This document shows, in pieces, positions 15,084 to 28,065 of a stretch of DNA of 64,000 bases; position 1 is the stretch's first letter; every line of letters begins with the position of its first letter. Location: positions 46,138 through 110,137 of the forward strand of contig PEAK01000001.1 of assembly GCA_002753515.1 (NCBI GenBank), written 5' to 3'. The translations under genes were made by a program, and so were the position numbers. The DNA comes from Magnetococcales bacterium. Lineage in GTDB: Bacteria; Pseudomonadota; Magnetococcia; Magnetococcales; UBA8363. Below the pieces are notes generated by a model. That model made no database searches. It saw nothing but the letters and a program-made list of their open reading frames with translations, and was not told the origin of the DNA.

Positions 15084-16370
15084 TTATTGGAAAATTTCTG
15101 GTTTCGGCATGAATTGTGCCGGATCGACTTTCCATTTGTCGTTTGGTTCGGTGCGCACGATGCGAAAGCCTTTGGTGGCGTTGCCGCTATAGTCCATCAG
15201 GTTGATTTCTTTAGGCTTTAATTTTTTGCCGGCCTTGGCGTCTATGATCACCTTGATGACGGGATGCAGCAGGCTTTCCGCATTGGAACGAATGACAATC
15301 CCCACCAGGTCATTTTCCAAGCGAACCAATGTTCCGATGGGGTAGATGCCAACGCATTGGACAAATCGTTGATACAATTGTGGATTGAAATGATTTTTTG
15401 ACCAATCCAGCATACGTTTGAGGGCAACATGGGGGGGGTTGCCCTTGTGATACACTCGATCCGAAGTAATGGCATCGTAAACGTCTACAATCGCGGCCAT
15501 TTGGCCAAATTCATCGATGGCATCGCCTTTGAGCCCATGGGGGTAACCCATACCATCGAAGCGTTCGTGGTGTTGCCCAGCGACAAAGATGCTGATTTCC
15601 GAGATGCCTTGTGTTTGCTCAAGGATTTCACGACTGAAGGTGACGTGTTGTTTCATGAGGAGAAATTCTTCATCAGTCAGTTTTCCAGCCTTGTTGAGGA
15701 CGTTTTCCGGGGTTCTCATTTTGCCAATGTCGTGAAGCATGCCACCGACACCCACTTTGATGATGGTTTCTTCGGGCATTTCCATGGCGCGGCAGAAAGA
15801 CATGAGGAACACGCCCACATTGACCGAATGCATGAAGGTATATTCATCACGTTTTTTGATCAGGCTTAAGCTTAAAATGGCATCGGGATTGCGGAACATC
15901 GACTCTGCCATGCCGAGGACGGCATCTTGAACCGGTTCCAAGGTGACTTGTTTGCCGAGGCGGGCATCGGCCAGTACATCCCCGACAATCCTGCGGGCGT
16001 GTGATTTCACTTCGGCAGCCCCTGAGAGTTCTTCCTCAAAGGGTATGGGCGATGCCCCTTTAAGAGCCAACTCTTCATCGTCCCCAAGCTCTTGGAGTTG
16101 TTCCGCAAGGGCTTGTTCGACATCCTTGAGAGGCGTGCCCTCAGCCTCTTCCCCTTTGGCAACGTCAATATAGATTTCTTTGATTCCACTGGATAAAATC
16201 GCTTGAATTTCCGCTTCGGTAGTGACGCGTTGCGGCCCTTGAAAGGCTCTTGGATTGTTATCATGCGAGCCTGGATCCTGCCAATCCTGATTAAAATCAG
16301 TAATATACATGCCAGGTTTCAGGTCAGTGGCCTTAATTTTCTTAATTGTTTCCTGAGCCATTGCAGACAT
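15084..16370 (-). CDS. HD-GYP phosphodiesterase with N-terminal DUF3391-like domain
   Basis: A 428-residue protein predicted to hydrolyse cyclic di-GMP. The N-terminus (IKATDLKPGMYITDF) resembles the DUF3391 domain common in front of HD-GYP domains. The HD-GYP core is canonical: LHDIGKMRTPENVLNKAGKL (about 211), QHHERFDGMGYPHGLKG (about 275) and VDVYDAITSDRVY. Its paralogue at 1349-2413 shares the C-terminal tail but lacks the N-terminal domain and the intact GYP. The ATG at 16370 is preferred because GGAGG lies 7 bases upstream; 16376 and 16361 are alternatives. It is divergent from the TPR-CHAT gene and may share its regulatory region. Confidence 0.87.
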   Translation of the reverse strand: MSAMAQETIKKIKATDLKPGMYITDFNQDWQDPGSHDNNPRAFQGPQRVTTEAEIQAILSSGIKEIYIDVAKGEEAEGTPLKDVEQALAEQLQELGDDEELALKGASPIPFEEELSGAAEVKSHARRIVGDVLADARLGKQVTLEPVQDAVLGMAESMFRNPDAILSLSLIKKRDEYTFMHSVNVGVFLMSFCRAMEMPEETIIKVGVGGMLHDIGKMRTPENVLNKAGKLTDEEFLLMKQHVTFSREILEQTQGISEISIFVAGQHHERFDGMGYPHGLKGDAIDEFGQMAAIVDVYDAITSDRVYHKGNPPHVALKRMLDWSKNHFNPQLYQRFVQCVGIYPIGTLVRLENDLVGIVIRSNAESLLHPVIKVIIDAKAGKKLKPKEINLMDYSGNATKGFRIVRTEPNDKWKVDPAQFMPKPEIFQ

Positions 16371-16728
16371 CCTCATGCCTCCGACTTTTGGTCATGTGCA
16401 ACCTTTGAAAAATCAGTCCCCTGATGTTTACACCTGTTCATGTTACCATGGTTGCGATGGGGTTGGAATAGCCATATTCGGTAAATACTCTGCCAGGATT
16501 GCAATGGCTCTCGGGGTACGTTCCTTGGCAATCGGGTACGGGAGTTGTCCTGTTTCGTTACCAGGGGTGACATGGCAAGAATTATTTGTCACGCTAGGTT
16601 ATTTTCTTTGTGCAAAGGCACTTAATTGTATGTGATGAGCAGATTTTAATTGACTTTCAAGTAATAATTCGTTGTGATGGTATCGGTGTCAGCTCCCGGA
16701 AGAGCTGTGAAAAGTACGCTTTTGTTCC
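16371..16728. other. Divergent intergenic region between HD-GYP and TPR-CHAT genes
   Basis: About 350 bases without a convincing gene. It contains a promoter candidate for the TPR-CHAT gene (16650-16678). A small hairpin, CAGCTC/GAGCTG with a six-base loop, lies at 16690-16707 in the predicted leader. An 86-codon open frame here has no family resemblance or ribosome site and is not called. Confidence 0.5.
16650..16678 (+). promoter_or_regulatory. Sigma-70-like promoter candidate for the TPR-CHAT gene
   Basis: TTGACT at 16650-16655 and TGTGAT at 16673-16678 are 17 bases apart, an optimal spacing. The -35 matches consensus at five of six positions, the -10 at four of six. It lies 50 bases upstream of the TPR-CHAT start. 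Confidence 0.35.
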
Positions 16729-19700
16729 ATGCCGTCTACTGCAAACTTGTTGATATCCATGATAACATCCTCTAAAAATATCACTTTTCATTTTTTGGCT
16801 TTGGTGTTGGCGACCATGCTGGTGCTTGGTGCCGACCAAAACCGGGCTTTTGCAGCGCCTGATCCCGGGGCGAACGTGCCAAAGGGAACTGAAGATGTCC
16901 GCAAAGATGCCGAAGCGGGCAATGCCCAGGATAAAAAGGGGGAGGCACCAGCTCAACCTGCGCAACCAGCTTCCGCCAACTCGCCGGTGGCACAACTCTC
17001 AGCCAAATTGAACGAGGCCATTGACCTGCAAAATCAGGGTCTTTACGAAAAGGCGCATCCCCTCATCAAAGGGTTGTGCGCTGATTTTTTGAAAGAGGCC
17101 GGTGAAAAAAATCCAGAAACCGGATGGTGTTTCAATCGTCTGGCAGTCTTGGAAGGGGCCATGGGCCAGTACGATGATGCCGAATCCTCCTTTAAACAAG
17201 CCTTGGGATTGCAAAAAGGGGCCCTGCCGGAAAATCATGCTGACATTTTGTCCACCTTGGTTGATCAGGGGGAACTGCTTCGGCTGCGCGGGCGCCTCAA
17301 GGAGGCTCAGGCCCAATTGGAAGATGTGTTGGACAAGTGTAAAGCCGATGACCTGGCCGAAGTGCGGATGAATGCGAAGTCCAATTTGGCCAAAGTCCAC
17401 GAAGATTTGGGTCATTTTGAGGATGCGGTTAAGTTAACTCGTGAGATATTGGACCATGAGATCAAGACGCTGGGCAGCGACCACCCGAATCCTTTGACCA
17501 CTCTGAACAATTTGGCGGGACTTAATCGGCGTCAGGGGAATTTTGCCGAAGCGGAAAAAAATTATCGTCAGGCTTTGACAGGTTTCCAGAAGGCCTTGGG
17601 CTCCGAACACCCGGCTACCATTGCCCTGATGAACAATCTGGCGATGACCATGGAGGATGAAGGACTCTATGATCAGGCCGAACCTTTGTTTCGCCAGTCG
17701 TGGCAGCTGGCGGAGAAGGTGTTGGGCAAAGATCATCCCACAACTTTGACCAACAGGAACAACCTGGCCATGCTTTATGAAAGTCAGGGGCTTTTTGACA
17801 AGGCAGAGGCGCAATACAACAGCACCATCCCCCTCGCCGAAGCCAAGTTGGGTCCGACCCATCCCGACACGATTGCCATGGTGAACAATTTGGCGTTTTT
17901 GCGCTTGTTGAAAGAGGACCATAAGTTGGCTGTGGAGGGATTTCAGCGTGTGTTGTCGGTGTGGCAGGGTGAGTTGGGGGAGAAACATCAAAAAACATTG
18001 AAGGCTATGAACAACTTGGCGCGGGCAGAGCATAAGGCGGGCCAGTTGAAGGAAGCGGAAGCCTTGTTATTACGTACCTTGAGCCTGCGTAAAGAGGCTC
18101 TGGGGCCCAAACATCCCGATGCCCTGCGTTCCATGCTGGATCTGGGTATGCTGTATCGTTCCCAGAAAAAAAACAAAGAAGCCCTGGAATTGTTGAAATC
18201 CGCCCTGGCCCTGGATGAGGAGGTTCTTGGCAAGCAACATCCTTATACGTTCGAGACCCTCAATGCCCTGGCGCAAACCATGGAGGAATCATCCGACCTT
18301 CAGGGTGCGTATAAATTGCGCCATGAAGGTTTTGATCGGCGCACCACCTTCCTGAATCGCATGTTGTGGGTGGCGGATGAAAATGCACGCGAGGGTTATA
18401 TACGCCTGCATTCCCCGGAATTGAACAATTTCCTGTCGCTGATAACGCATCTTCCCCCCGAAGTGGCGGGAAGGGAAGCCATTGATGTCAGTCTGCAACG
18501 CAAAGGATTGTTGCTGAAAATCACCTCGGAAATCCAGCAGGTGAGCCAGATCGCGAAAGATCCGAAATTGGCCGAGCTAACGCAACAATTGACCGCGGCG
18601 CGCAAGGAATTGGCGGCGATGACGCTTTCCGGACCCAGTGCCGATTCGCCCAACAGCTATCTTGAAACAATCCATCGCCTGGAAGGCAAGGTGAACGATA
18701 TCGAACGACTCCTCGGGCAGGCGAGTTTGCGGTATCGGTATACGACCTTGCTCTATGATACAGACCAGGTGGCGGCCAATTTGCCTGCGGGGTCGGGTTT
18801 GGTTGATTTCCTGGTATTTAACCAGGAGGGTAAGTCAAGGTTGATGGCCAGCACCATGGTCATGAAAGAAGGTAAGCCTCAATTTAACCTCGTCGTTTAT
18901 CCAAGTCTTGAGGATGTGCAGAAGGCCGTGCTGGACTATCGGGCTAAAATTCAGGATGAGGAGGCCGATTCCCAGGATGTTAAAGAGTTTGGCCAGAAGG
19001 TTTATGATTTGGTTTGGAAACCTGTGGCGGCTTCCCTGGGGGATCGGGAGGACATTTACCTTGTTCCCGATGGAATCCTCAATATTTTGCCTTTCAATGC
19101 CTTGGTGGACGCGGATAAAAAATTTCTTATCCAGAAGGTTAAATTACATATCCTGACGTCCAGTCGTGATATCCTGCCCTCCGCAATCCCGCCAGCTACC
19201 GGGGAGATGATGGTTGTAGCCGGTCCCGATTACAACTCAACGAAAGTTGCCGGCGAGGTGCAGTTGGAACAGGTGAGTCAAAGGCGCGCCGCTGCGGTGA
19301 TGCAGGGTATTCGCGGTGCCGGGAGTGGTATGCGGGGGTTGCATTTCGATCCATTACCCGGGGCCGAAAAGGAAGGCCGGCTCATTATCGATCAAGCCAA
19401 GGAAAAAGGGCAAAAAAATCAGTTTTTTGTCCAAAACGATGCCCAGGAGAAGCTGGTTCAGGCGTTGTCGGTACCCCCGCGTATGATCCACATCGCGACT
19501 CATGGCTTTTTTCTCAAGCCTGATGATAGCTTGAGGAAAAGGTTGCTGAAGTTGCAACGGGGTGCCGAGGGACAGTTGCCCCCTCCTGGCGATAATCCGT
19601 TGTTACGTTCCGGGTTGGCGTTTGCGGGGATCAACGCCAATGCGCCGTATCTTGGAGAACTCGATACGGTCAACGATGGTGTGCTGACGGCACTGGAAGT

Positions 19701-20016
19701 GTTGGGACTGAACCTTGCGGGTACTGAGCTTGCGATCCTCAGCGCTTGCGAGACGGGACTGGGTGAAATTCATGAAGGTGAAGGGGTCTATGGTCTCAGA
19801 CGTGCGTTCATGGAAACCGGCGTCCGTTCGCTCATCGCTTCCCTCTGGGAGGTGAGCGATGCGGGTACCCAAAACCTGATGACCAAATTTTATGGTCGTT
19901 TGATGTCGGGCAAGACCGTGCATGAGGCGATGCGGGAATCACAACTGGAAATGATCAGCAGTGCTGAATGGAGCAATCCATACATCTGGTCAGCCTTCAT
20001 GCTGATAGGGAAATAA
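16729..20016 (+). CDS. Exported TPR-repeat CHAT-domain protein
   Basis: A 1095-residue protein with a signal-peptide-like N-terminus (hydrophobic stretch FLALVLATMLVLG, then AFAAPDPG). From about residue 85 to 540 it consists of kinesin-light-chain-type TPR repeats of about 42 residues, each with HP..L...NNLA and a conserved A-E-x-x-Y/L pattern. The C-terminal third is a CHAT domain, a caspase-like peptidase fold. Both expected catalytic residues are visible: His in MIHIATHGFF (about 924) and Cys in LSACETGLG (about 1006). The start may instead be ATG 16759. It is followed on the same strand by FecR-domain and adenylate-cyclase genes. Protease activity and substrate are inferred only from the family. 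Confidence 0.85.
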   Translation: MPSTANLLISMITSSKNITFHFLALVLATMLVLGADQNRAFAAPDPGANVPKGTEDVRKDAEAGNAQDKKGEAPAQPAQPASANSPVAQLSAKLNEAIDLQNQGLYEKAHPLIKGLCADFLKEAGEKNPETGWCFNRLAVLEGAMGQYDDAESSFKQALGLQKGALPENHADILSTLVDQGELLRLRGRLKEAQAQLEDVLDKCKADDLAEVRMNAKSNLAKVHEDLGHFEDAVKLTREILDHEIKTLGSDHPNPLTTLNNLAGLNRRQGNFAEAEKNYRQALTGFQKALGSEHPATIALMNNLAMTMEDEGLYDQAEPLFRQSWQLAEKVLGKDHPTTLTNRNNLAMLYESQGLFDKAEAQYNSTIPLAEAKLGPTHPDTIAMVNNLAFLRLLKEDHKLAVEGFQRVLSVWQGELGEKHQKTLKAMNNLARAEHKAGQLKEAEALLLRTLSLRKEALGPKHPDALRSMLDLGMLYRSQKKNKEALELLKSALALDEEVLGKQHPYTFETLNALAQTMEESSDLQGAYKLRHEGFDRRTTFLNRMLWVADENAREGYIRLHSPELNNFLSLITHLPPEVAGREAIDVSLQRKGLLLKITSEIQQVSQIAKDPKLAELTQQLTAARKELAAMTLSGPSADSPNSYLETIHRLEGKVNDIERLLGQASLRYRYTTLLYDTDQVAANLPAGSGLVDFLVFNQEGKSRLMASTMVMKEGKPQFNLVVYPSLEDVQKAVLDYRAKIQDEEADSQDVKEFGQKVYDLVWKPVAASLGDREDIYLVPDGILNILPFNALVDADKKFLIQKVKLHILTSSRDILPSAIPPATGEMMVVAGPDYNSTKVAGEVQLEQVSQRRAAAVMQGIRGAGSGMRGLHFDPLPGAEKEGRLIIDQAKEKGQKNQFFVQNDAQEKLVQALSVPPRMIHIATHGFFLKPDDSLRKRLLKLQRGAEGQLPPPGDNPLLRSGLAFAGINANAPYLGELDTVNDGVLTALEVLGLNLAGTELAILSACETGLGEIHEGEGVYGLRRAFMETGVRSLIASLWEVSDAGTQNLMTKFYGRLMSGKTVHEAMRESQLEMISSAEWSNPYIWSAFMLIGK

Positions 20017-20224
20017 AAAATAAATTTCTTTCGATAAACCATGAACCAAAAAGCCAGCCAGGGTACTTATCTGTACCAGGGCGCTGTTCCGCCAACTTTC
20101 AATGGAGAAGGGAGATTGGATTATGTCCCTGGAATTTGCCGGTTGACCTGAAAGTATCGTAATAGGGCTCTTATGCCTGGACGGCATTATACGCAGCAAC
20201 TACCATCACAAAGGGAGAAGGATT

Positions 20225-21166
20225 ATGAAACCGCATTGGATCAAGTTCAATTTCCTGCTGATGGCCATGTTTGTCTTAGGACTGGCCAGTCAGGCTTTGG
20301 CACTTGCCCCACCCGTAGCCATGCTGACCCAGGTGAAGGGGACTGTCGAAGTTTTTAAGGATAACGAATGGAAGAAGGTGACCTCGAATAAGTTCGTTTT
20401 TGACGGAACCAAGGTTCGCACGGGTGCGGATGGTGCTGCGACCGTCATTAACCAGGCCAACAGCACCAGTCAGAATATGGCTGCAAATACCGAGTTGGAG
20501 ATCACTGCGGCTGCTATCAAGGTCGTTTCCGGCACCCTTTCCGAGCCGCAGAAAGCAGGTGGTGACGTTCTTTCCAGTATGAACCAACGCTTTGAAGAAG
20601 CACAGCGTTATACAACAGTGCGCCGTAGCGTGGACAAGAAAGAAAATGACCAAAAGCTGGCAACGATCCGTGAGGTCACCCTTTCGGAACAGCATCCCGA
20701 CATGGTTTGGTCCAACGTCGGACCCGAATTTTCATATCGCCTGATCATCGATGACAAATCCATCGATGTCCCGGCAACCAAGGATGAGATGGTGCGTTTC
20801 AAAGTAACCGGGTTGACCCCTGGATCGCATAAATATCGGGTCGACGTGATCAAGGATGGTACTGCGGTTTTCTCCCCCAATGGTGATCGGACCATGGTTT
20901 GGCTGGGTGGTGCGGCGTTGGATGAGTTCAACAAAAAACTTGCTGATATTAAAGGTTCGACCCCCGGAGACGACTTTCTGGTTGCCAATTTCCTGGACGA
21001 GAAAGGTTTGACCGTCGCCGCCATGGACATGTATCGGAAATATTTCAAGGCCAATCCGGGCGATATCGACATGTTTCCGCTGTTGATCAAAACCTATCAC
21101 GATTTGAAGTTGAACGAGCTGAAAAAAGAAGCGGCTCTGGAATACAATAAAATCATGGGAAACTAA
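20225..21166 (+). CDS. Exported FecR-domain protein
   Basis: A 313-residue protein with a cleavable signal peptide (hydrophobic core FLLMAMFVLGLASQ, AxA-like site at ALA). Residues about 28-110 form a FecR domain: AMLTQVKGTVEVFKDNEWK, FDGTKVRTGADGAATV. FecR domains usually sit in the periplasm and relay envelope signals. A second part (about 150-240) has a beta-rich pattern including LTPGSHKYRVDV, suggestive of a carbohydrate-binding or Ig-like fold. The C-terminus is helical and TPR-like (LDEKGLTVAAMDMYRKYF). It has a strong AAGGGAGAAGG ribosome site. No FecI-type sigma factor is adjacent, so the usual FecR partner is missing; the neighbours are TPR-CHAT and a CHASE2 cyclase. Confidence 0.8.
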   Translation: MKPHWIKFNFLLMAMFVLGLASQALALAPPVAMLTQVKGTVEVFKDNEWKKVTSNKFVFDGTKVRTGADGAATVINQANSTSQNMAANTELEITAAAIKVVSGTLSEPQKAGGDVLSSMNQRFEEAQRYTTVRRSVDKKENDQKLATIREVTLSEQHPDMVWSNVGPEFSYRLIIDDKSIDVPATKDEMVRFKVTGLTPGSHKYRVDVIKDGTAVFSPNGDRTMVWLGGAALDEFNKKLADIKGSTPGDDFLVANFLDEKGLTVAAMDMYRKYFKANPGDIDMFPLLIKTYHDLKLNELKKEAALEYNKIMGN

Positions 21167-21190
21167 AACCAGCATTGGTCTGGAATCCGG

Positions 21191-21220
21191 GCGTGGGGGG
21201 TCTCCCTCCACGCTTTTTTT
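21191..21220 (+). terminator. Rho-independent terminator after the FecR-domain gene
   Basis: A 10-base-pair stem, GCGTGGGGGG pairing with CCCTCCACGC (one G-T pair), closes a three-base loop and is followed by seven T. It lies 25 bases after the FecR-domain stop and would separate it transcriptionally, at least partly, from the cyclase gene. Confidence 0.85.
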
Positions 21221-21370
21221 ATAGGGTGGCGGACACTTTTACGACTGACTTGTTGTCTTAAGAGTGGTATTTCAGGCAAATTCCCATTGCGGGTTGGTGG
21301 TAATGCGTTCACAATGACCCTTATTTCGGGTCGAATCATGTGTTCATTTTTTGGGGAGAATCATTGGGTC

Positions 21371-23440
21371 ATGAACAAGATCCTGCAACGTTACGACATT
21401 CTGGCAACTATTTTGTTTTTTGTCCTGGTGGTGCCTTCAGAATATTTTGAGATTTTTTCCCTCCTTGAAGAGCAGACCGTCTCGTTTCGCCATATCTTGC
21501 GGCAAAATTATGGTGATCCTCAGACAATGAGCTTTCCCAAGGATAAAATTGTATTGATCAATACCGATGAGGCTTTCTTCAAAGAATATAAGAGTTTTCC
21601 GTTACGTCGCACGGATATCGGGAAAATTGCCGAAAATCTCAAGACGTTGGGAGCGCGGGTGGTCGCTATCGACCTTCTGATGGATTTCCCCAGTTCCTAC
21701 AACGAAGATCAACCAACCGCCGAATCCTTCAAGAAAGCCGCTCCGGTCTTGTTGGTGTCCCAAGCTGACATCCGCAAAGGTAAATTTGAGCGACTCAACC
21801 TGCCCACCCGGGAATTGGCTGCGGTAACCCAAAATGGTTACACCAATATCGGCTCGCAAAGCAGTGTAGTAACCTCTCTGTCCCGATTGAAAATTTTTCC
21901 TGAAATTGCTGAAAAGGCAAAAGCTTGGCCGTATGCCATCAAAGCGTTGTCGATGTATTTTGGGGTGGAACCCGAATTGGGGCCTGGCGTTATTAAATTT
22001 GGACCTAATCTGTCCGTGCCCTTGGATCAATTCAACAATATTTACATCGACTTTCCCATTCTTCCCCCCGGTAGCCGGTATTTGAGTCAGACTGCCGGTT
22101 TCTCTGCTTTGGATTATCTGAATATCGCAGGCAAAAGTGAAGAAGATCTGTATGAATTGAGCTATCCGATTAAAGATCGGATCGTGCTATTGGGTGACAC
22201 TTCAGAAGTGTCACACGATTGGTTTGATACCCCTGTGGGGACGGTCTACGGGGTGGAAATCATTGCCGATGTCATTCAGACCATTTTGAAGGGTGGGACA
22301 TTGAAGCCAGCTTCCGTTCCTCAAGAAGCATCGGCGGCTTTTCTGTTGATGCTGGGTATGATGGTGCTGGGTGTTATCAAACATCCAACCTTGAGAGTTC
22401 TGGTTGCCCTCCTGGGTATCGGTTTGTGGGTCGGGATCATCACCGTGATCTACGTCAAGCATGGATTGGTTTTCTCCATGTCCTACTCCCTGCTGGCAGC
22501 CATTCTCAGTTTCATGGTCATCAATATGCGGTATTACCTCCAGGAGATGAGCCAGAAAAAAATGATCAAGGGGGCATTTGGGCAATACCTGTCGCCCCAT
22601 GTGGTGGATATTCTGGTTAAAGATCCCAGCAAGCTGAGTCTGGGAGGCGAAGAGCGTGTGATGACCGCCTTTTTTTCCGATGTGGCGGGATTTTCCACGA
22701 TTTCGGAAAAACTGACCCCCTCGGAATTGGTGTTGCTCCTAAACGAATATTTGACCGCCATGTGCGAAATCATTGCCAAGTATGATGGAACGGTGGACAA
22801 GTTTGAAGGTGATGCCATTATTGCCTTTTGGGGGGCGCCGTTGGATCAGCCCAACCATGCAACGATGTGCTGTCATGCCTCTGTCGAAATGCAACAATTC
22901 ATGCATCAGATGCGGGAACGGTTGGCCAAGGAGGGTCGGGCCCCCTTGCGCGTACGCATGGGCATCAACTCCGGACCCATGGTGGTGGGTAACATGGGAT
23001 CGAAACAGCGTATGGATTACACCATCATGGGTGATGCGGTGAATCTGGCGGCGCGCTTGGAAGGGGCGAACAAATTCTATGCATCAGACACCATGATCTC
23101 GGATGCGACTTATCAGTTGGCTAAAAACGATATCGATTGTCGGGTGTTGGATACGGTACGCGTCATTGGTAAAAAAGAGCCGGTCACCATTTATCAATTA
23201 TTGGGCAAAAAAGGTGAGGTTACCGGCAAACTTGCTGAACTATTGCAACATTATAACGCTGGCTTGGAGCAGTATCGGGCGCGGGACTACCAACAAGCCA
23301 TAGAACATTTTGAAAAAGCGCTCGCCATCATTCCTGAGGATGGACCATCAAAGACCTATGTGGAACGTTGCAGGGAATACCTGGAAAATCCCCCTGCAGC
23401 AGACTGGGATGGGGTGTTTGTCTTCACCTCAAAGGGATAG
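21371..23440 (+). CDS. CHASE2-domain class III adenylate cyclase with C-terminal TPR
   Basis: A 689-residue membrane cyclase. One N-terminal helix is followed by a periplasmic CHASE2 sensor (about 30-300; IVLINTDEAFF, LGARVVAIDLLMDFP). Two or three more helices follow (about 320-400), then the cytoplasmic cyclase domain. Metal-binding Asp residues lie in FFSDVAGFSTI (about 435) and FEGDAIIAFWG. The Lys in VDKFEGD and Asp in IMGDAVNLAAR are the ATP-selecting pair, so cAMP is the expected product. A C-terminal TPR unit occupies about 620-665. The frame opens at TTG 21287, but ATG 21371 with GGGGAGA upstream fits better. It is separated from the FecR gene by a terminator, so it probably has its own promoter. 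Confidence 0.9.
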   Translation: MNKILQRYDILATILFFVLVVPSEYFEIFSLLEEQTVSFRHILRQNYGDPQTMSFPKDKIVLINTDEAFFKEYKSFPLRRTDIGKIAENLKTLGARVVAIDLLMDFPSSYNEDQPTAESFKKAAPVLLVSQADIRKGKFERLNLPTRELAAVTQNGYTNIGSQSSVVTSLSRLKIFPEIAEKAKAWPYAIKALSMYFGVEPELGPGVIKFGPNLSVPLDQFNNIYIDFPILPPGSRYLSQTAGFSALDYLNIAGKSEEDLYELSYPIKDRIVLLGDTSEVSHDWFDTPVGTVYGVEIIADVIQTILKGGTLKPASVPQEASAAFLLMLGMMVLGVIKHPTLRVLVALLGIGLWVGIITVIYVKHGLVFSMSYSLLAAILSFMVINMRYYLQEMSQKKMIKGAFGQYLSPHVVDILVKDPSKLSLGGEERVMTAFFSDVAGFSTISEKLTPSELVLLLNEYLTAMCEIIAKYDGTVDKFEGDAIIAFWGAPLDQPNHATMCCHASVEMQQFMHQMRERLAKEGRAPLRVRMGINSGPMVVGNMGSKQRMDYTIMGDAVNLAARLEGANKFYASDTMISDATYQLAKNDIDCRVLDTVRVIGKKEPVTIYQLLGKKGEVTGKLAELLQHYNAGLEQYRARDYQQAIEHFEKALAIIPEDGPSKTYVERCREYLENPPAADWDGVFVFTSKG

Positions 23441-23532: not shown

Positions 23533-23545
23533 GGAGATGTTGCCA

Positions 23546-24814
23546 ATGAATGTTCTGCCCTGGTACGACAGGATTCCTCGCACACGGATATACTTGAAAC
23601 TGCCTGAAATCCTGGGTGGCTTGGTAAACTTGGCTGCCGGTCAGGAGGACGGGTATGAGCAGGTAGAGGCCTTTGAACATGCCTTTGCCGATAGAATGGG
23701 TGTGGATGGCGCTGTCGCCGAACCCTATGCCAGGATAGCGCTTTACCATCTGGTGGTCGCACTGCAGTTACCCCCCGGCAGTGAAATTATCATGACCCCG
23801 GTTACCATCCACGATATCGTCAATGTATTACTGATAGCAGGTCTCAAGCCGGTCTTTGTGGATATTGATCCGCAAACCTACCAGATGGATCCGCAAAAAT
23901 TGATTGCGGCCATTACCCCAAAAACACGAGCTGTCCTGGTGACGCATTTGTTTGGTTTGGCAACCGATATGGATGCCATTCAAGGGATTTGCCGGCAACG
24001 TGGGCTGGTTTTGCTGGAGGATGGATCCCACGCCTTTAACGCCGCTTGGAATGGAAAAAAATTGGGTACATTCGGTGATGCCGGTTTTTTCTCCCTTTCT
24101 TCACTCAAGGCGGTGTCCACCGGGTATGGTGGGATTGTTGTTGCCAAAGATGCCCAATTGCTTGAAGGGGTTCGCAGGCAAGCGGATGCATTGCCAAAGG
24201 TCGAAAAAGGCCACTTGTTGGGGATTTTGCTGCGCAATTTGATTGTTAATCTGGCAACGCATCCCACCCTGTTTTCCTGGTCCACCTTTCCGGTGATTCG
24301 TTGGATAAGTGATCGCAGCCCGGAGACGATCCGCAAGCTACAAACAGATAATCCAAATGTTTTACGACTCTCCGGTATCCCTGAAAAATGGTTGTGGCGT
24401 TTTTGTTCGATCCAGGCCGATTTGGGATTGCATTGCCTGTCGCGTATGCGTGAGTGGGACGAAAAACGGCGGTCCAATGCGCACGTATTATTGGATTATC
24501 TCAAAACAGAGGCCCCTGAGCGTCTGCCTCGATTGATGCTAGGTTCGTACAACGTGTTTTGGCGCTTTCCGTTCCGTGCCCCCGAGGGCGCGGAATTTCG
24601 GCGGTTTATGGCAATGAGAGGGGTGGATTTAACGACGACCTTGCTCCCTTGTTGTTCAGGCATGCCTATTTTTTCGGACATCGCCAGGGAGACCCCGAAT
24701 GCCCGGCAGGCGGTCAGGGAGGTCCATTTTTTACCGGTTCATCCGACGATTCCGCAAGAACGCATTCACCAGATGGCCAGGATTGTGCTTGAGTTTCTTC
24801 AACAAAGGGGCTGA
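23546..24814 (+). CDS. DegT/DnrJ/EryC1-family PLP aminotransferase
   Basis: A 422-residue member of the sugar-aminotransferase family. The PLP fold shows PVTIHDIVNVLLIAGLKPVF, the cofactor-contacting LLEDGSHAFNA and the candidate PLP lysine in SLSSLKAVSTGYGG. Family enzymes usually transaminate nucleotide-linked keto-sugars. ATG 23546 is chosen because AGGAG lies nine bases upstream; ATG 23537 touches that site. It starts a run of four plus-strand genes with two radical SAM proteins and a methyltransferase. Its product is unknown; an amino-sugar or similar envelope component is an inference. Confidence 0.82.
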   Translation: MNVLPWYDRIPRTRIYLKLPEILGGLVNLAAGQEDGYEQVEAFEHAFADRMGVDGAVAEPYARIALYHLVVALQLPPGSEIIMTPVTIHDIVNVLLIAGLKPVFVDIDPQTYQMDPQKLIAAITPKTRAVLVTHLFGLATDMDAIQGICRQRGLVLLEDGSHAFNAAWNGKKLGTFGDAGFFSLSSLKAVSTGYGGIVVAKDAQLLEGVRRQADALPKVEKGHLLGILLRNLIVNLATHPTLFSWSTFPVIRWISDRSPETIRKLQTDNPNVLRLSGIPEKWLWRFCSIQADLGLHCLSRMREWDEKRRSNAHVLLDYLKTEAPERLPRLMLGSYNVFWRFPFRAPEGAEFRRFMAMRGVDLTTTLLPCCSGMPIFSDIARETPNARQAVREVHFLPVHPTIPQERIHQMARIVLEFLQQRG

Positions 24815-24869
24815 TGTTGAAGCAGACCGGGGGATGGCATTGCAGGATCTTTTGTAAAGGGGTGAATTC

Positions 24870-25976
24870 ATGTCCATTATCAGCATGGCTGAGCAGTTGA
24901 CCATCAAGAATATCCCCGGGATATTGCGTTCGGCACTAGGCAATTTTATCAGCCTGATGACCCAAAGGCCCAACAAAGGCTCACCCTTTTACATTTTGTG
25001 GATCACCACGTATGGATGCAATCGCAAATGCCTCCATTGTGACTGGGTTTGGTCGCGCACCTCGGAGGCCGATTTGGCTCGGGAGCTGAATGATACCGAA
25101 CAATTGCAATTGGTCGAACAAATGTGTGCCACCGATGCCTGGGGGGTTACCATCTCCGGGGGTGAACCTTTGATGCTGCCCAAGATTCGCGAGATTCTCC
25201 GGCGCCTGAAACAGGCCGGCAAACGGGTTAATTTGTGCAGCAATGGGGTGTTGTTACCAAGGTTTGCCGAAGAATTGGTGGCTATCAAACTGGATTCCCT
25301 GACCGTCAGCATGGACAGCTTTCGACCCGAAGAACATGACCATATTCGCGGGGTTCCCGGTTCTTTTCAAAAATCCATGGCGGGAATTGCGGCAGTAAAA
25401 AAATGGCGCGGTAACCGCAAATTCCCTAAATTGGTGATCAAGGCGGTTATTTCTTCTAAAAATTTTCGTGAAATGGCCCAATGGGTTGAGTACTTTCATC
25501 CCTATGCCGACACGGTTGAATTTCAACCCATTCAAAACAATCTGGTACATCAGATCAAGGCGGGCGAGGATTCCTTGATGTTTCGACCAGAAGAGGAAGG
25601 GGAATTCCGTCGGGTGATGGATGATTTGGCGGCACGCTGGTCAACCTTCAAGTCGCCCTACTATCAACGTATGGCTGATTTCATCTTTCATCCTGGAGAA
25701 CTGTTTGATTCCGGAGGGTTTCGTTGTCTGTTCCTTTCGTCTTTCTTTTTGGAAATCAGCCCCTATGGTGCCGTGGGGAGCTGTCCGGGACACTATGTCC
25801 TGGGTAACGTGCGCGAAAGAACAATCTTAGATATATGGCGTGACCTGAAAACGTGCGAATATCAAAAAAAATTGCGGTCGAAAAACAACAAATGCCTGTG
25901 TTGGACCTACAATACATTTTCCAATCTGTATTTGTTGCCACTCTACAAGCATTCCCCTTGGATCAAGGATCCGTGA
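24870..25976 (+). CDS. Radical SAM protein with C-terminal Cys cluster
   Basis: A 368-residue radical SAM enzyme. The 4Fe-4S/SAM motif is GCNRKCLHCDW (about residues 50-60), followed by the SAM-binding ISGGEP. A Cys-containing C-terminal region (FRCLFLSS, GSCPGHYVLGN, NKCLCW) resembles the SPASM or twitch auxiliary-cluster region. Reaction and substrate are unknown. It lies 55 bases after the aminotransferase and 4 bases before the methyltransferase, so these genes are probably cotranscribed. Confidence 0.85.
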   Translation: MSIISMAEQLTIKNIPGILRSALGNFISLMTQRPNKGSPFYILWITTYGCNRKCLHCDWVWSRTSEADLARELNDTEQLQLVEQMCATDAWGVTISGGEPLMLPKIREILRRLKQAGKRVNLCSNGVLLPRFAEELVAIKLDSLTVSMDSFRPEEHDHIRGVPGSFQKSMAGIAAVKKWRGNRKFPKLVIKAVISSKNFREMAQWVEYFHPYADTVEFQPIQNNLVHQIKAGEDSLMFRPEEEGEFRRVMDDLAARWSTFKSPYYQRMADFIFHPGELFDSGGFRCLFLSSFFLEISPYGAVGSCPGHYVLGNVRERTILDIWRDLKTCEYQKKLRSKNNKCLCWTYNTFSNLYLLPLYKHSPWIKDP

Positions 25977-25980
25977 CTCA

Positions 25981-26739
25981 ATGGACCGGCAAAATTATAT
26001 AACCATGGCCGCCGTGCAGGAACGGCATTGGTGGTTTCGTGGCAGACGCGCCCTATTGGGGCGCGTGTTTGCGCGGCTGAAATTGCCGGAAAAAGCGCAT
26101 ATCCTGGATGCCGGTTGCGGACCTGGTCCCAATTTGCAGTTGCTTGCACAATATGGTCGTGTGTGGGGTATGGAGTATGACGACTATGCTTTGGAACATG
26201 CGAAAAAAATATCCGATGCCACCTTGGCTCAGGGATTCCTTCCGTATGACATACCCTTCGCAGGGCAAAAATTTCATCTGGTGACCCTGCTGGATGTCCT
26301 TTCTTGCATCGAATCCGATAAGGATGCCATACAAGCCTTGGCCGAGCGAATCGAACCGGGTGGATGGTTGGTGATCACGGCTCCAGCTTACAATTTTCTT
26401 TGGTCGAGCCACGATGTGGCATCGCATCATTATCGGCGCTACACCATTTCCAGGCTCAAGGATGCTGTGGCCCCTTCCGGTTTGACCATTCATTTCACGA
26501 GTTATTTCAATTCCATTCTGTTTTTACCCATATTTCTGATTCGACTCATGAAGCGATGGTTGTCCATCCTGGAAGGGGATGATTCCGGTGTTGTGCCATC
26601 GGTGCCGATCAATCAATTTTTGTATGGCCTTTTAAGGTTGGAAAGTGCTTTATTAGGATATGGCTTGGTATTTCCCTTTGGTGTATCGGTGTTGCTCGTT
26701 GCCCATAAACCAGTATCTGACGGTAGCAATCTGGTGTAG
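25981..26739 (+). CDS. Class I SAM-dependent methyltransferase
   Basis: A 252-residue methyltransferase. The N-terminus ERHWWFRGRRALL is typical of a subgroup found in glycan clusters. The SAM-binding motif I is HILDAGCGPGPNLQLL (about 40-55), with an acidic end of strand 2 (WGMEYDDYAL) and LVTLLDVLSCI as motif post-I. The C-terminus has one or two hydrophobic stretches that could touch the membrane. It starts 4 bases after the radical SAM stop. The substrate is unknown. Confidence 0.82.
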   Translation: MDRQNYITMAAVQERHWWFRGRRALLGRVFARLKLPEKAHILDAGCGPGPNLQLLAQYGRVWGMEYDDYALEHAKKISDATLAQGFLPYDIPFAGQKFHLVTLLDVLSCIESDKDAIQALAERIEPGGWLVITAPAYNFLWSSHDVASHHYRRYTISRLKDAVAPSGLTIHFTSYFNSILFLPIFLIRLMKRWLSILEGDDSGVVPSVPINQFLYGLLRLESALLGYGLVFPFGVSVLLVAHKPVSDGSNLV

Positions 26740-26775
26740 TAGATTGGTAAACTTCCGAGAAATGCATCCACGACC

Positions 26776-28065
26776 ATGACATACTTGCGTCAAACCCCCA
26801 AAGCCTTGCTCGTTTCTCTCAGGGATCCTTTCCTGGACTCGGATCGGGTTATGCCCCCCATGGGCGTCATGGCGTTGCATTCCTATTTGCTCAATCTAGG
26901 GATTGAATCGCGCCTTGAAAACAACTTTGACATTAATAACGTGGAACAATATTGTGATTTTAATTATATATGTATTTCCTGCATGACGCCGCAGAAATTC
27001 CAAGCCTATGAAATTCTCCATGCGGTAAAACGTACTTGTCCCGATATCCGGGTGGTAATCGGCGGTCCCCATGCCAGTTATTATTTGGAAGAATGTATTA
27101 CACAGCCGTTTGACTTTATCGTCAAGGGCGATGGCGAATTGGCCTTGGAGGAAATTCTCACGGGGCGCGCTGAACTCAAAAGGGTCATGGAACGTCCGGT
27201 GTCTGAGCAGCAGATGAACACCTTTCCACTTCCTTACAGGGAAAAAGATTTTTTAAATCAATATGAATTCGTTTTCCAGGGAGTTCGCGCATCGACCCTC
27301 CTGACATCAAAAGGTTGTCCCATGTCCTGTACCTTTTGTGAAGATGCCAGGACCAAGGTGCGGATGTATACCCCGGAATACGTGGGGCGTCAGATTGAAG
27401 AGATCAAGGCGGCGGGCTATCAGGGGGTGATGTTTTTTGATGATGTCATGACGCTTTCCAAAAAACGGGTACGTGACCTCACCCGGGAAATTATCAAGCA
27501 TGATATCTTGTTCCGTTGCTTTGGTCATGCCCGTACTATGACCGATGATATTGCAGATATGTTGCGGGATGCGGGGTGCATTGAGACCGGGGTGGGCATG
27601 GAGACCGGTTCGCAACGTATCTTGGATGCTGTCCTCAAAAAAACTACAATTGATCAAAACAAAGATTATGTTTTAATGTGTAATGCCCGTGGTATTCGTG
27701 TGAAAGCCTTCTTTATTCTGGGGCTTCCAGGGGAGAACGAAGAGACGATAGCGGAAACTGAAAAATTTTTGCAATTCCTCATGGAACAGACCGTGGTGAG
27801 CCACGATGGCAAAGTTATTCAAAATGATTTCGATATGACAGTTTTTTTTCCTTATTCGGGAACTGAGATACGTCGCAAAATGGATGCTGGCGAAGGGGAT
27901 ATTGATCTGATGTTTGTCGATAACCCTGATTTAAGATATGGTTTTTATAAGGGTGTCCAAGGTTCATCGGAGGTGGTTATCCGGACCAATCGCATGTCCG
28001 CAGAATTGCTTCGAGAAAACCAAGTGCGCCTCTTGAGTACGTATAAAGCCAAACCTTCCACCTGA
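26776..28065 (+). CDS. B12-binding-domain radical SAM protein
   Basis: A 429-residue enzyme of the BchE/P-methylase-like class. The N-terminal cobalamin-binding-like domain shows MPPMGVMALHSYLLNLGIE and VVIGGPHASYY. The radical SAM core has SKGCPMSCTFCEDA, with the CxxxCxxC cluster ligands, and VGMETGSQRILD. Family members methylate or rearrange unactivated carbons, often in lipids, pigments or antibiotics. It is separated by 36 bases from the methyltransferase and converges with the GT2 gene, with 4 bases between stops. The substrate cannot be told from sequence. Confidence 0.83.
   Translation: MTYLRQTPKALLVSLRDPFLDSDRVMPPMGVMALHSYLLNLGIESRLENNFDINNVEQYCDFNYICISCMTPQKFQAYEILHAVKRTCPDIRVVIGGPHASYYLEECITQPFDFIVKGDGELALEEILTGRAELKRVMERPVSEQQMNTFPLPYREKDFLNQYEFVFQGVRASTLLTSKGCPMSCTFCEDARTKVRMYTPEYVGRQIEEIKAAGYQGVMFFDDVMTLSKKRVRDLTREIIKHDILFRCFGHARTMTDDIADMLRDAGCIETGVGMETGSQRILDAVLKKTTIDQNKDYVLMCNARGIRVKAFFILGLPGENEETIAETEKFLQFLMEQTVVSHDGKVIQNDFDMTVFFPYSGTEIRRKMDAGEGDIDLMFVDNPDLRYGFYKGVQGSSEVVIRTNRMSAELLRENQVRLLSTYKAKPST

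Follow-up and report, generated by a model that had tools for sequence, protein, structure and literature searches.

We analyzed a stretch of 64,000 nucleotides (the window) from the Magnetococcales assembly GCA_002753515.1 (contig PEAK01000001.1, positions 46,138 to 110,137 of the forward strand). In this window the genes for a TPR-CHAT protein, for a protein that had been read as an exported FecR-domain protein and for a CHASE2 receptor adenylate cyclase lie in a row. The analysis identified the "FecR" protein as MtxA, and the locus is therefore the mtx cluster of magnetotactic bacteria. Since the neighbourhood is conserved in two bacterial classes, a three-gene module is strongly supported, and we regard it as highly probable that the three genes form one functional unit. 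As the same three genes travel together in both classes, this is likely a surface-signalling unit, whether related to magnetism or not. The starting point was a sequence-only reading of the DNA, which had described the row and proposed one module leading from the envelope to cyclic AMP (cAMP). All three genes were confirmed by their open reading frames (ORFs) and by Pfam, and the neighbourhood survey that it had suggested did find co-occurrence rather than the lack of it. It had missed the identity of MtxA and with it a cluster that was in part already known.

The identity of the middle gene rests on several comparisons. Using Pfam at E 0.001, the protein was assigned DUF7354, MtxA_IG-like and MtxA_C (PF22433, E 1.3e-29; PF22121, E 1.4e-31). 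A profile built from 43 relatives matched the solved MtxA structure (PDB 4z29) with E 6e-142, the predicted model matched the same entry by fold, and a relative with 42% identity is present in Paramagnetospirillum marisnigri. The FecR family PF04773 gave no match over the Pfam cut-off in this protein, the segment being assigned to DUF7354 instead. What stood of the FecR call is a remote likeness: in a profile comparison with 16 FecR neighbours of CHASE2 genes the N-terminal domain reached an hhalign probability of 96 (E 4e-9), and it appears to be remotely FecR-like. The protein thus reads as a signal-peptide-like N-terminus, a FecR-like domain, a linker, an immunoglobulin-like (Ig-like) domain and a TPR-like C-terminal domain. 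In one genome (G032, locus L041) two tandem mtxA genes precede a single CHASE2 cyclase gene.

To the Magnetococcales belong the nearest named database records of the window's genome, which are metagenome-assembled genomes. Among 48 genomes of this order MtxA_C was found in 41, CHAT-protein matches in 45 (some of them covering TPR parts only) and CHASE2 in 47. We then counted genes within 3 kb of each MtxA_C match as adjacent, on the basis of the 47 rows for MtxA, of the top CHAT rows (to a floor of about 338 bits) and of those CHASE2 rows that were judged candidates; rows dropped from this count could hide an adjacency and could not create one. Both partners were adjacent at 14 of the 47 MtxA places, CHASE2 only at 24, CHAT only at five and neither at four. 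The 14 full rows come from 13 genomes in six families. CHASE2 thus lies within 3 kb downstream of MtxA at 38 of 47 places, although one of the two tandem copies in G032 reaches it only past the other copy. The orientation was uniform, with CHAT upstream in 19/19 and CHASE2 downstream in 38/38 cases, always on the same strand. MtxA was not found in G020, where a CHAT gene stands directly ahead of a CHASE2 gene.

The second class is that of the Alphaproteobacteria, which NCBI taxonomy separates from the Magnetococcia (P. marisnigri versus Magnetococcales). Of the 55 genomes in the P. marisnigri family, 30 encode MtxA, and the CHAT relative is found in precisely these 30 (Fisher 3e-16, a value inflated because it ignores the kinship of the genomes). 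A CHASE2 cyclase gene follows directly behind MtxA in all 30, one of them cut by a contig end, and the CHAT gene lies about 3 kb downstream on the same strand in 27 and on a separate contig in the other three. The order in this family is MtxA-cyclase-CHAT and in the Magnetococcales CHAT-MtxA-CHASE2, so the set was kept while the order changed. By these co-occurrence counts the arrangement is repeated far more often than chance would produce. A sample of 398 genomes of the phylum contained MtxA_C in 41, all of them Magnetococcales, and in none of 350 others; this sample missed the mtxA genes of the P. marisnigri family.

The 24 places with CHASE2 and without an adjacent CHAT gene could also mean that MtxA and the cyclase alone are a signalling pair, and that CHAT is a separate protease linked to adhesins or secretion which shares the operon by history. 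The occurrence of CHAT paralogues in type I secretion neighbourhoods would fit this. We consider it unlikely, because MtxA and CHAT are jointly present or absent in 55/55 genomes of the second-class family in spite of the different gene order, and because CHAT and MtxA stand together without an adjacent CHASE2 gene at five places (of which two lie near the end of a contig).

The CHAT-mtxA-cyclase row is partly in print. For Magnetospirillum a CHASE2 adenylate cyclase gene has been described behind mtxA (PMC4439547). The mtx cluster of Magnetofaba australis IT-1, likened to that of Magnetococcus marinus MC-1, was given as a "Sel1 domain-containing" gene, mtxA and a cyclase gene (PMC5088516), and these may be what the phrase "three mtx genes" refers to. 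The corresponding protein in the genome that we took for MC-1 is a Sel1-TPR-CHAT protein, and we infer that the IT-1 Sel1 gene equals the CHAT gene, the identity of both genomes being likewise inferred. The CHAT protein of the window itself had no Sel1 match in Pfam, and for a protein of Magnetospirillum sp. XM-1 the database annotation gives a CHAT domain. The words CHAT and FecR do not occur in PMC4439547, and the passage on IT-1 in PMC5088516 names neither. In the open-licence literature no work was found that joins the CHAT domain with CHASE2 or FecR, or TPR-CHAT with an adhesin, and among the titles retrieved for the CHAT domain together with magnetotactic bacteria none dealt with the mtx cluster. 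Beyond the known cluster, the present analysis contributes the identification of CHAT, the finding that the genes co-occur in two classes, the exchanged outputs and the link to FecR.

The name of the cluster raises the question of magnetism, and MtxA was at first claimed to be restricted to bacteria that form magnetosomes. It is conceivable that the cluster serves magnetotaxis or magnetosome formation, with MtxA at the magnetosome membrane reporting the state of crystal or chain to the cyclase, and the genome of the window does contain a MamA match over our cut-off (211.8 bits). However, mtxA does not track mamA within the Magnetococcales. MamA (at least 185 bits) was detected in 43 of the 48 genomes; both genes were found in 37, mtxA alone in four, mamA alone in six and neither in one (Fisher p 0.56), a table that relies on a single marker gene and on incomplete genomes. 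The threshold of 185 instead of the curated 200 was set afterwards, since the presumed MC-1 genome scores 185.8. One genome with mtxA and without mamA (G008) is 99% complete. This pattern fits the published lack of a deletion phenotype: the mtxA mutant of M. gryphiswaldense was virtually wild-type under standard conditions, with magnetosomes and magnetic swimming like the wild type, and two non-magnetic bacteria of Phaeospirillum also carry mtxA (PMC4439547). We consequently find a magnetic role improbable and doubt the use of MtxA as a magnetosome marker.

The first gene of the row encodes a protein with TPR repeats and a CHAT domain, as in caspase/separase-like CHAT peptidases, at residues 753-1095 (PF12770, E 7e-76). 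In the AlphaFold2 (AF2) model a signal-peptide-like N-terminus and a low-confidence stretch up to residue 83 are followed from residue 86 by a very long TPR superhelix of high confidence. Signal-peptide-like hydrophobic N-termini were present in 30 of 34 CHAT rows, and the remaining four ORFs begin at contig ends. This hydropathy analysis, on which the export call is based, suggests that the CHAT protein is exported rather than cytoplasmic. The catalytic dyad claimed by the sequence-only reading at about His924 and Cys1006 is present, one residue further on (His925 and Cys1007). The model resembles the Craspase TPR-CHAT protein Csx29 and separase, with low overall TM-scores of about 0.3. Searching the CHAT-domain sequence against solved structures yielded nothing at E 0.01. 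As the VIA-align rows cover chiefly the TPR part, the fold of the CHAT domain rests on Foldseek and on the small number of VIA rows extending to residue 1095.

Instead of a protease, CHAT might be a scaffold whose TPR superhelix binds the MtxA linker and presents it uncut to CHASE2, the dyad being a structural or peptide-binding relic. The predicted superhelix would suit such a role, as would the TPR-like domain at the C-terminus of MtxA; when purified without the signal peptide, MtxA was a soluble monomer (PMC4439547). A pure scaffold would not need the dyad, though, and His and Cys are identical in 37/37 rows including distant paralogues, which makes this explanation doubtful.

Between the FecR-like and the Ig-like domain of MtxA lies a linker that is modelled by AF2 as a helix followed by a low-confidence stretch. 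Its residues 122-136 are the most conserved 15-mer of the protein (entropy 0.47 versus 1.39-1.69 for the domains), and the motif AQRY is present in 59 of 64 unique MtxA ORFs. A similar motif, [AS]QRYG, follows the FecR domain in 6/6 FecR proteins of another family whose gene comes immediately after a CHAT gene, and QRY was found in 0/47 other ORFs that match our home-made FecR hidden Markov model (HMM), some of these ORFs being cut. The background of AQRY in other ORFs is about 0.0007 per 100 residues. As the resemblance was found post hoc by looking, we treat it as a lead and not as proof.

These CHAT genes directly ahead of a FecR gene come from six genomes (L179, L181, L186, L188, L189, L191). 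The FecR proteins of L188 and L191 are short, cut pieces, and the FecR match of the former (G036) holds an in-frame stop, its longest ORF having no Pfam family; the other four exceed 3,500 aa, with RTX repeats shown for L186. In a further family the CHAT gene precedes TolC-like or ABC transporter genes (L177, L178, L183, L184), in L183 a type I secretion run of the order TolC-ABC-HlyD-PEGA/SPOR. In a tree of 37 chosen CHAT rows the FecR-type and the secretion-type proteins each have a clade of their own, and these two join (100/98) separately from the mtx CHAT proteins. Two loci have, divergent from the mtx CHAT gene, the gene of a large FecR protein in which cadherin/Ig-like and FG-GAP repeats occur (L032, 1-5112; L034, 3-4877).

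For the third gene Pfam confirmed both the CHASE2 and the Guanylate_cyc domain, and hydropathy placed CHASE2 between a single N-terminal hydrophobic segment and several C-terminal ones. The six catalytic and specificity residues of the class III cyclase domain, which we take to be the metal, ATP-selecting and transition-state residues, are invariant in 22/22 mtx cyclases, in agreement with the ATP-selecting and metal residues reported before, and the enzyme is predicted to make cAMP. Its start is probably the ATG at 21371 and not the TTG at 21287 (717 aa) chosen earlier, because homologues mostly align from residue 28-34 on. The conserved C-terminal tail recurs in near-identical form in other mtx cyclases whose C-terminus is complete, as well as in many further CHASE2 cyclases, and its pattern PPxxWDGV...TSK is shared by CHASE2 cyclases of several lineages; this tail is possibly a self-regulating peptide. 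According to PMC5192318, the signals of CHASE2 receptors are not known. Elsewhere in the window's genome (L030) the gene directly ahead of a CHASE2 cyclase gene encodes a TolC-like outer membrane protein that also has a SPOR domain.

The output of the receptor is exchanged in two of the 14 full rows, where it ends in GAF-HD-GYP (G012, L037) or, at a contig end, in GAF (G023, L038). The L037 receptor aligns to the window cyclase over residues 29-428 only. In a tree of the CHASE2 region (45 chosen rows; three picks were dropped as they had no suitable match) L037, L038 and the 14 mtx cyclases formed one group (100/99), with the 14 cyclases together at 97/99. A link to cyclic di-GMP (c-di-GMP) does appear outside the window, in the form of the mtx-type CHASE2 receptor that carries GAF-HD-GYP in place of the cyclase. 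At L027 in the window's genome, FecR and TPR genes are followed by the gene of a CHASE2 hybrid histidine kinase. Because the GAF(-HD-GYP) rows and this histidine kinase differ in output, the shared part is CHASE2 with a FecR-type partner, and the output varies. The CHAT protein of L037 shows a possible FecR remnant at its contig-cut N-terminus (home-made HMM, E 1e-6), a weak lead; among the 120 relatives listed, out of 213 matches, none shows FecR as a precomputed Pfam domain, and we therefore claim no CHAT-FecR fusion.

The pairing was followed through CHASE2 regions picked from the best-scoring rows, 60 outside and 39 inside the order, with an upstream neighbour in 55 and 37, respectively. 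Outside the order FecR was the commonest family directly upstream (14/55). Not counted among these 14 are six more FecR ORFs that lie shortly after CHASE2 on the other strand (L107, L130-L132, L134, L135), and one FecR neighbour (L077) has cadherin-like repeats too. Inside the order FecR stood directly upstream of non-mtx CHASE2 genes in 5/37, the leading families being HD_5 (17/37) and GAF (16/37); at L174 a FecR ORF upstream of CHASE2 was missed and another ORF taken in the count. Since a genome of the order contains only one to nine FecR matches, the upstream frequency is far above chance there, a comparison made for the genomes inside the order only. By the home-made HMM, FecR was found in 0/79 downstream same-strand neighbours of CHASE2 inside and outside the order. 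These counts suggest that CHASE2 receptors commonly have a FecR-like protein as partner. A different, large Magnetococcales group of CHASE2 genes (L137-L175) follows an HD-GYP gene, mostly with GAF.

Taken together, these data are compatible with a route from the periplasm to the cytoplasm. The CHAT protein, probably exported, is predicted to be a protease with MtxA as its substrate, and its target there would be the AQRY linker. The Ig-TPR part of MtxA might thereby be freed or repositioned to contact CHASE2, and MtxA would bind and set the receptor cyclase and so change cAMP. The input would be the state of the cell surface, such as the cell wall or large FecR-headed adhesins, and not a magnetic field. 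We hold this chain as a whole to be quite possible, somewhat short of probable. A wider version, which we think unlikely, is a proteolytic switch unrelated to magnetism, in which CHAT cuts FecR-type clients including MtxA at AQRY, the product resets CHASE2 with an exchangeable output (cAMP synthesis or c-di-GMP breakdown by HD-GYP) and sister CHAT proteins act likewise on giant FecR-headed RTX adhesins. If true, adhesins at the surface and second messengers would be linked through a single family of proteases.

Several observations weigh against a single proteolytic unit. At 28 of 47 MtxA places there is no adjacent CHAT gene, though a relative is usually encoded elsewhere in the genome, and G044 has MtxA and no CHAT match (genome 76% complete). 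Four same-genus genomes (G001, G002, G004, G005) lack a CHASE2 gene beside CHAT-MtxA, though the contig of G001 has room for no more than about 650 bases. A terminator separates mtxA from the cyclase gene. The AQRY likeness between MtxA and FecR proteins is short and was spotted post hoc, and the six [AS]QRYG proteins all come from one genus. The other FecR-type proteins near an mtx CHAT gene (L032 and L034, divergent; L035, upstream) adjoin CHAT yet belong to the 47 ORFs without QRY, which weakens a general rule.

MtxA has for years been named after magnetotaxis, with a solved domain and no phenotype. Genomics now places two partners at its side, of which one is a predicted periplasmic protease and the other a receptor cyclase, and it provides a short segment to probe and grounds for seeking the function of MtxA at the cell surface. 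The features of the locus are compiled in the following table.

Features of the mtx locus in the window (positions count from the first letter of the window)
Feature	Position	Strand	Basis or remark
Divergent DUF3391 + HD-GYP gene	15084..16376	-	Pfam; neighbour, probably outside the module
TPR-CHAT gene, 1095 aa	16729..20016	+	ORF list, Pfam
Codon of candidate catalytic His925 (ATHG)	19501..19503	+	Same residue in 37/37 aligned CHAT rows
Codon of candidate catalytic Cys1007 (SAC)	19747..19749	+	Same residue in 37/37 aligned CHAT rows
mtxA homologue, 313 aa	20225..21166	+	Pfam PF24045, PF22433, PF22121; profile and fold matches to PDB 4z29
FecR-like domain of MtxA, residues 29-112 (DUF7354)	20309..20560	+	Pfam, profile-profile comparison
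MtxA linker, residues 121-136 (QRFEEAQRYTTVRRSV)	20585..20632	+	Lowest entropy of MtxA; candidate segment for docking or cleavage by CHAT
Rho-independent terminator in the mtxA/cyclase gap	21189..21223	+	Strong hairpin 21189-21215 plus T tail
CHASE2 receptor adenylate cyclase gene, 689 aa from ATG 21371	21371..23440	+	Pfam CHASE2, Guanylate_cyc
Conserved C-terminal tail of the cyclase (PPAADWDGVFVFTSKG)	23390..23437	+	Comparison of C-termini

The terminator, which had been placed at 21191-21220, was borne out. Sites with a hairpin and a T run were found in 10/14 mtxA-cyclase gaps (that of the window included), with hairpins that differ between loci, and in 0/7 CHAT-mtxA gaps by the same scan, which used lenient settings and no shuffled control. 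CHAT and mtxA may therefore form one transcript, with the cyclase gene partly separate. The divergent HD-GYP gene is present as described. The further idea that cAMP and c-di-GMP control meet at this gene found no support beyond the window's genus: a relative adjoins the row in four loci of the same genus (L015-L018), and blastp with the HD-GYP protein gave none beside those mtx rows of other families that were annotated. The gene was rejected as a core part because it adjoins the row only in this genus, and it probably lies outside the module. Downstream of the cyclase gene (23537-28065) a DegT aminotransferase gene (Pfam) is followed by three genes that by eye resemble two radical-SAM genes and a methyltransferase gene, and this set is kept in L015 and L016 of the same genus.

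Compared with known systems, the cluster shares single elements with several. As in FecI-FecR, there is a FecR-like domain, here in MtxA; the difference is that a Pfam scan of six proteins (the three of the cluster and three neighbours) gave no sigma-factor family, as already noted for FecI before, and that the neighbour is a receptor cyclase. The TPR-CHAT protein of the type III-E CRISPR Craspase (Csx29, with the substrate Csx30) and separase differ in that the CHAT protein of the window is apparently exported and is paired with MtxA and a receptor. A gRAMP-like large effector was not seen: no other ORF above 814 aa is listed between 12 and 28 kb of the window, judged against what we take to be the size of such effectors. 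In the control of LapA by LapG and LapD a periplasmic Cys protease is tied to a nucleotide-signalling receptor and to giant adhesins; the mtx system would instead produce cAMP and operate via FecR-type proteins, and the likeness is one of idea. With the published mtx clusters of Magnetospirillum, MC-1 and IT-1 it shares mtxA followed by the CHASE2 adenylate cyclase gene (PMC4439547; PMC5088516). In the BiofilmReg operon of Burkholderia, as described in the accessible part of PMC5192318, a response regulator, a LysM-FecR protein and a CHASE2 histidine kinase are encoded. Its output is a histidine kinase with a response regulator and that of the window a cyclase, no CHAT gene is included in the operon described there, and its FecR protein carries LysM instead of Ig-like and TPR-like domains. 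Common to both is the periplasmic FecR-domain protein encoded directly before the CHASE2 receptor.

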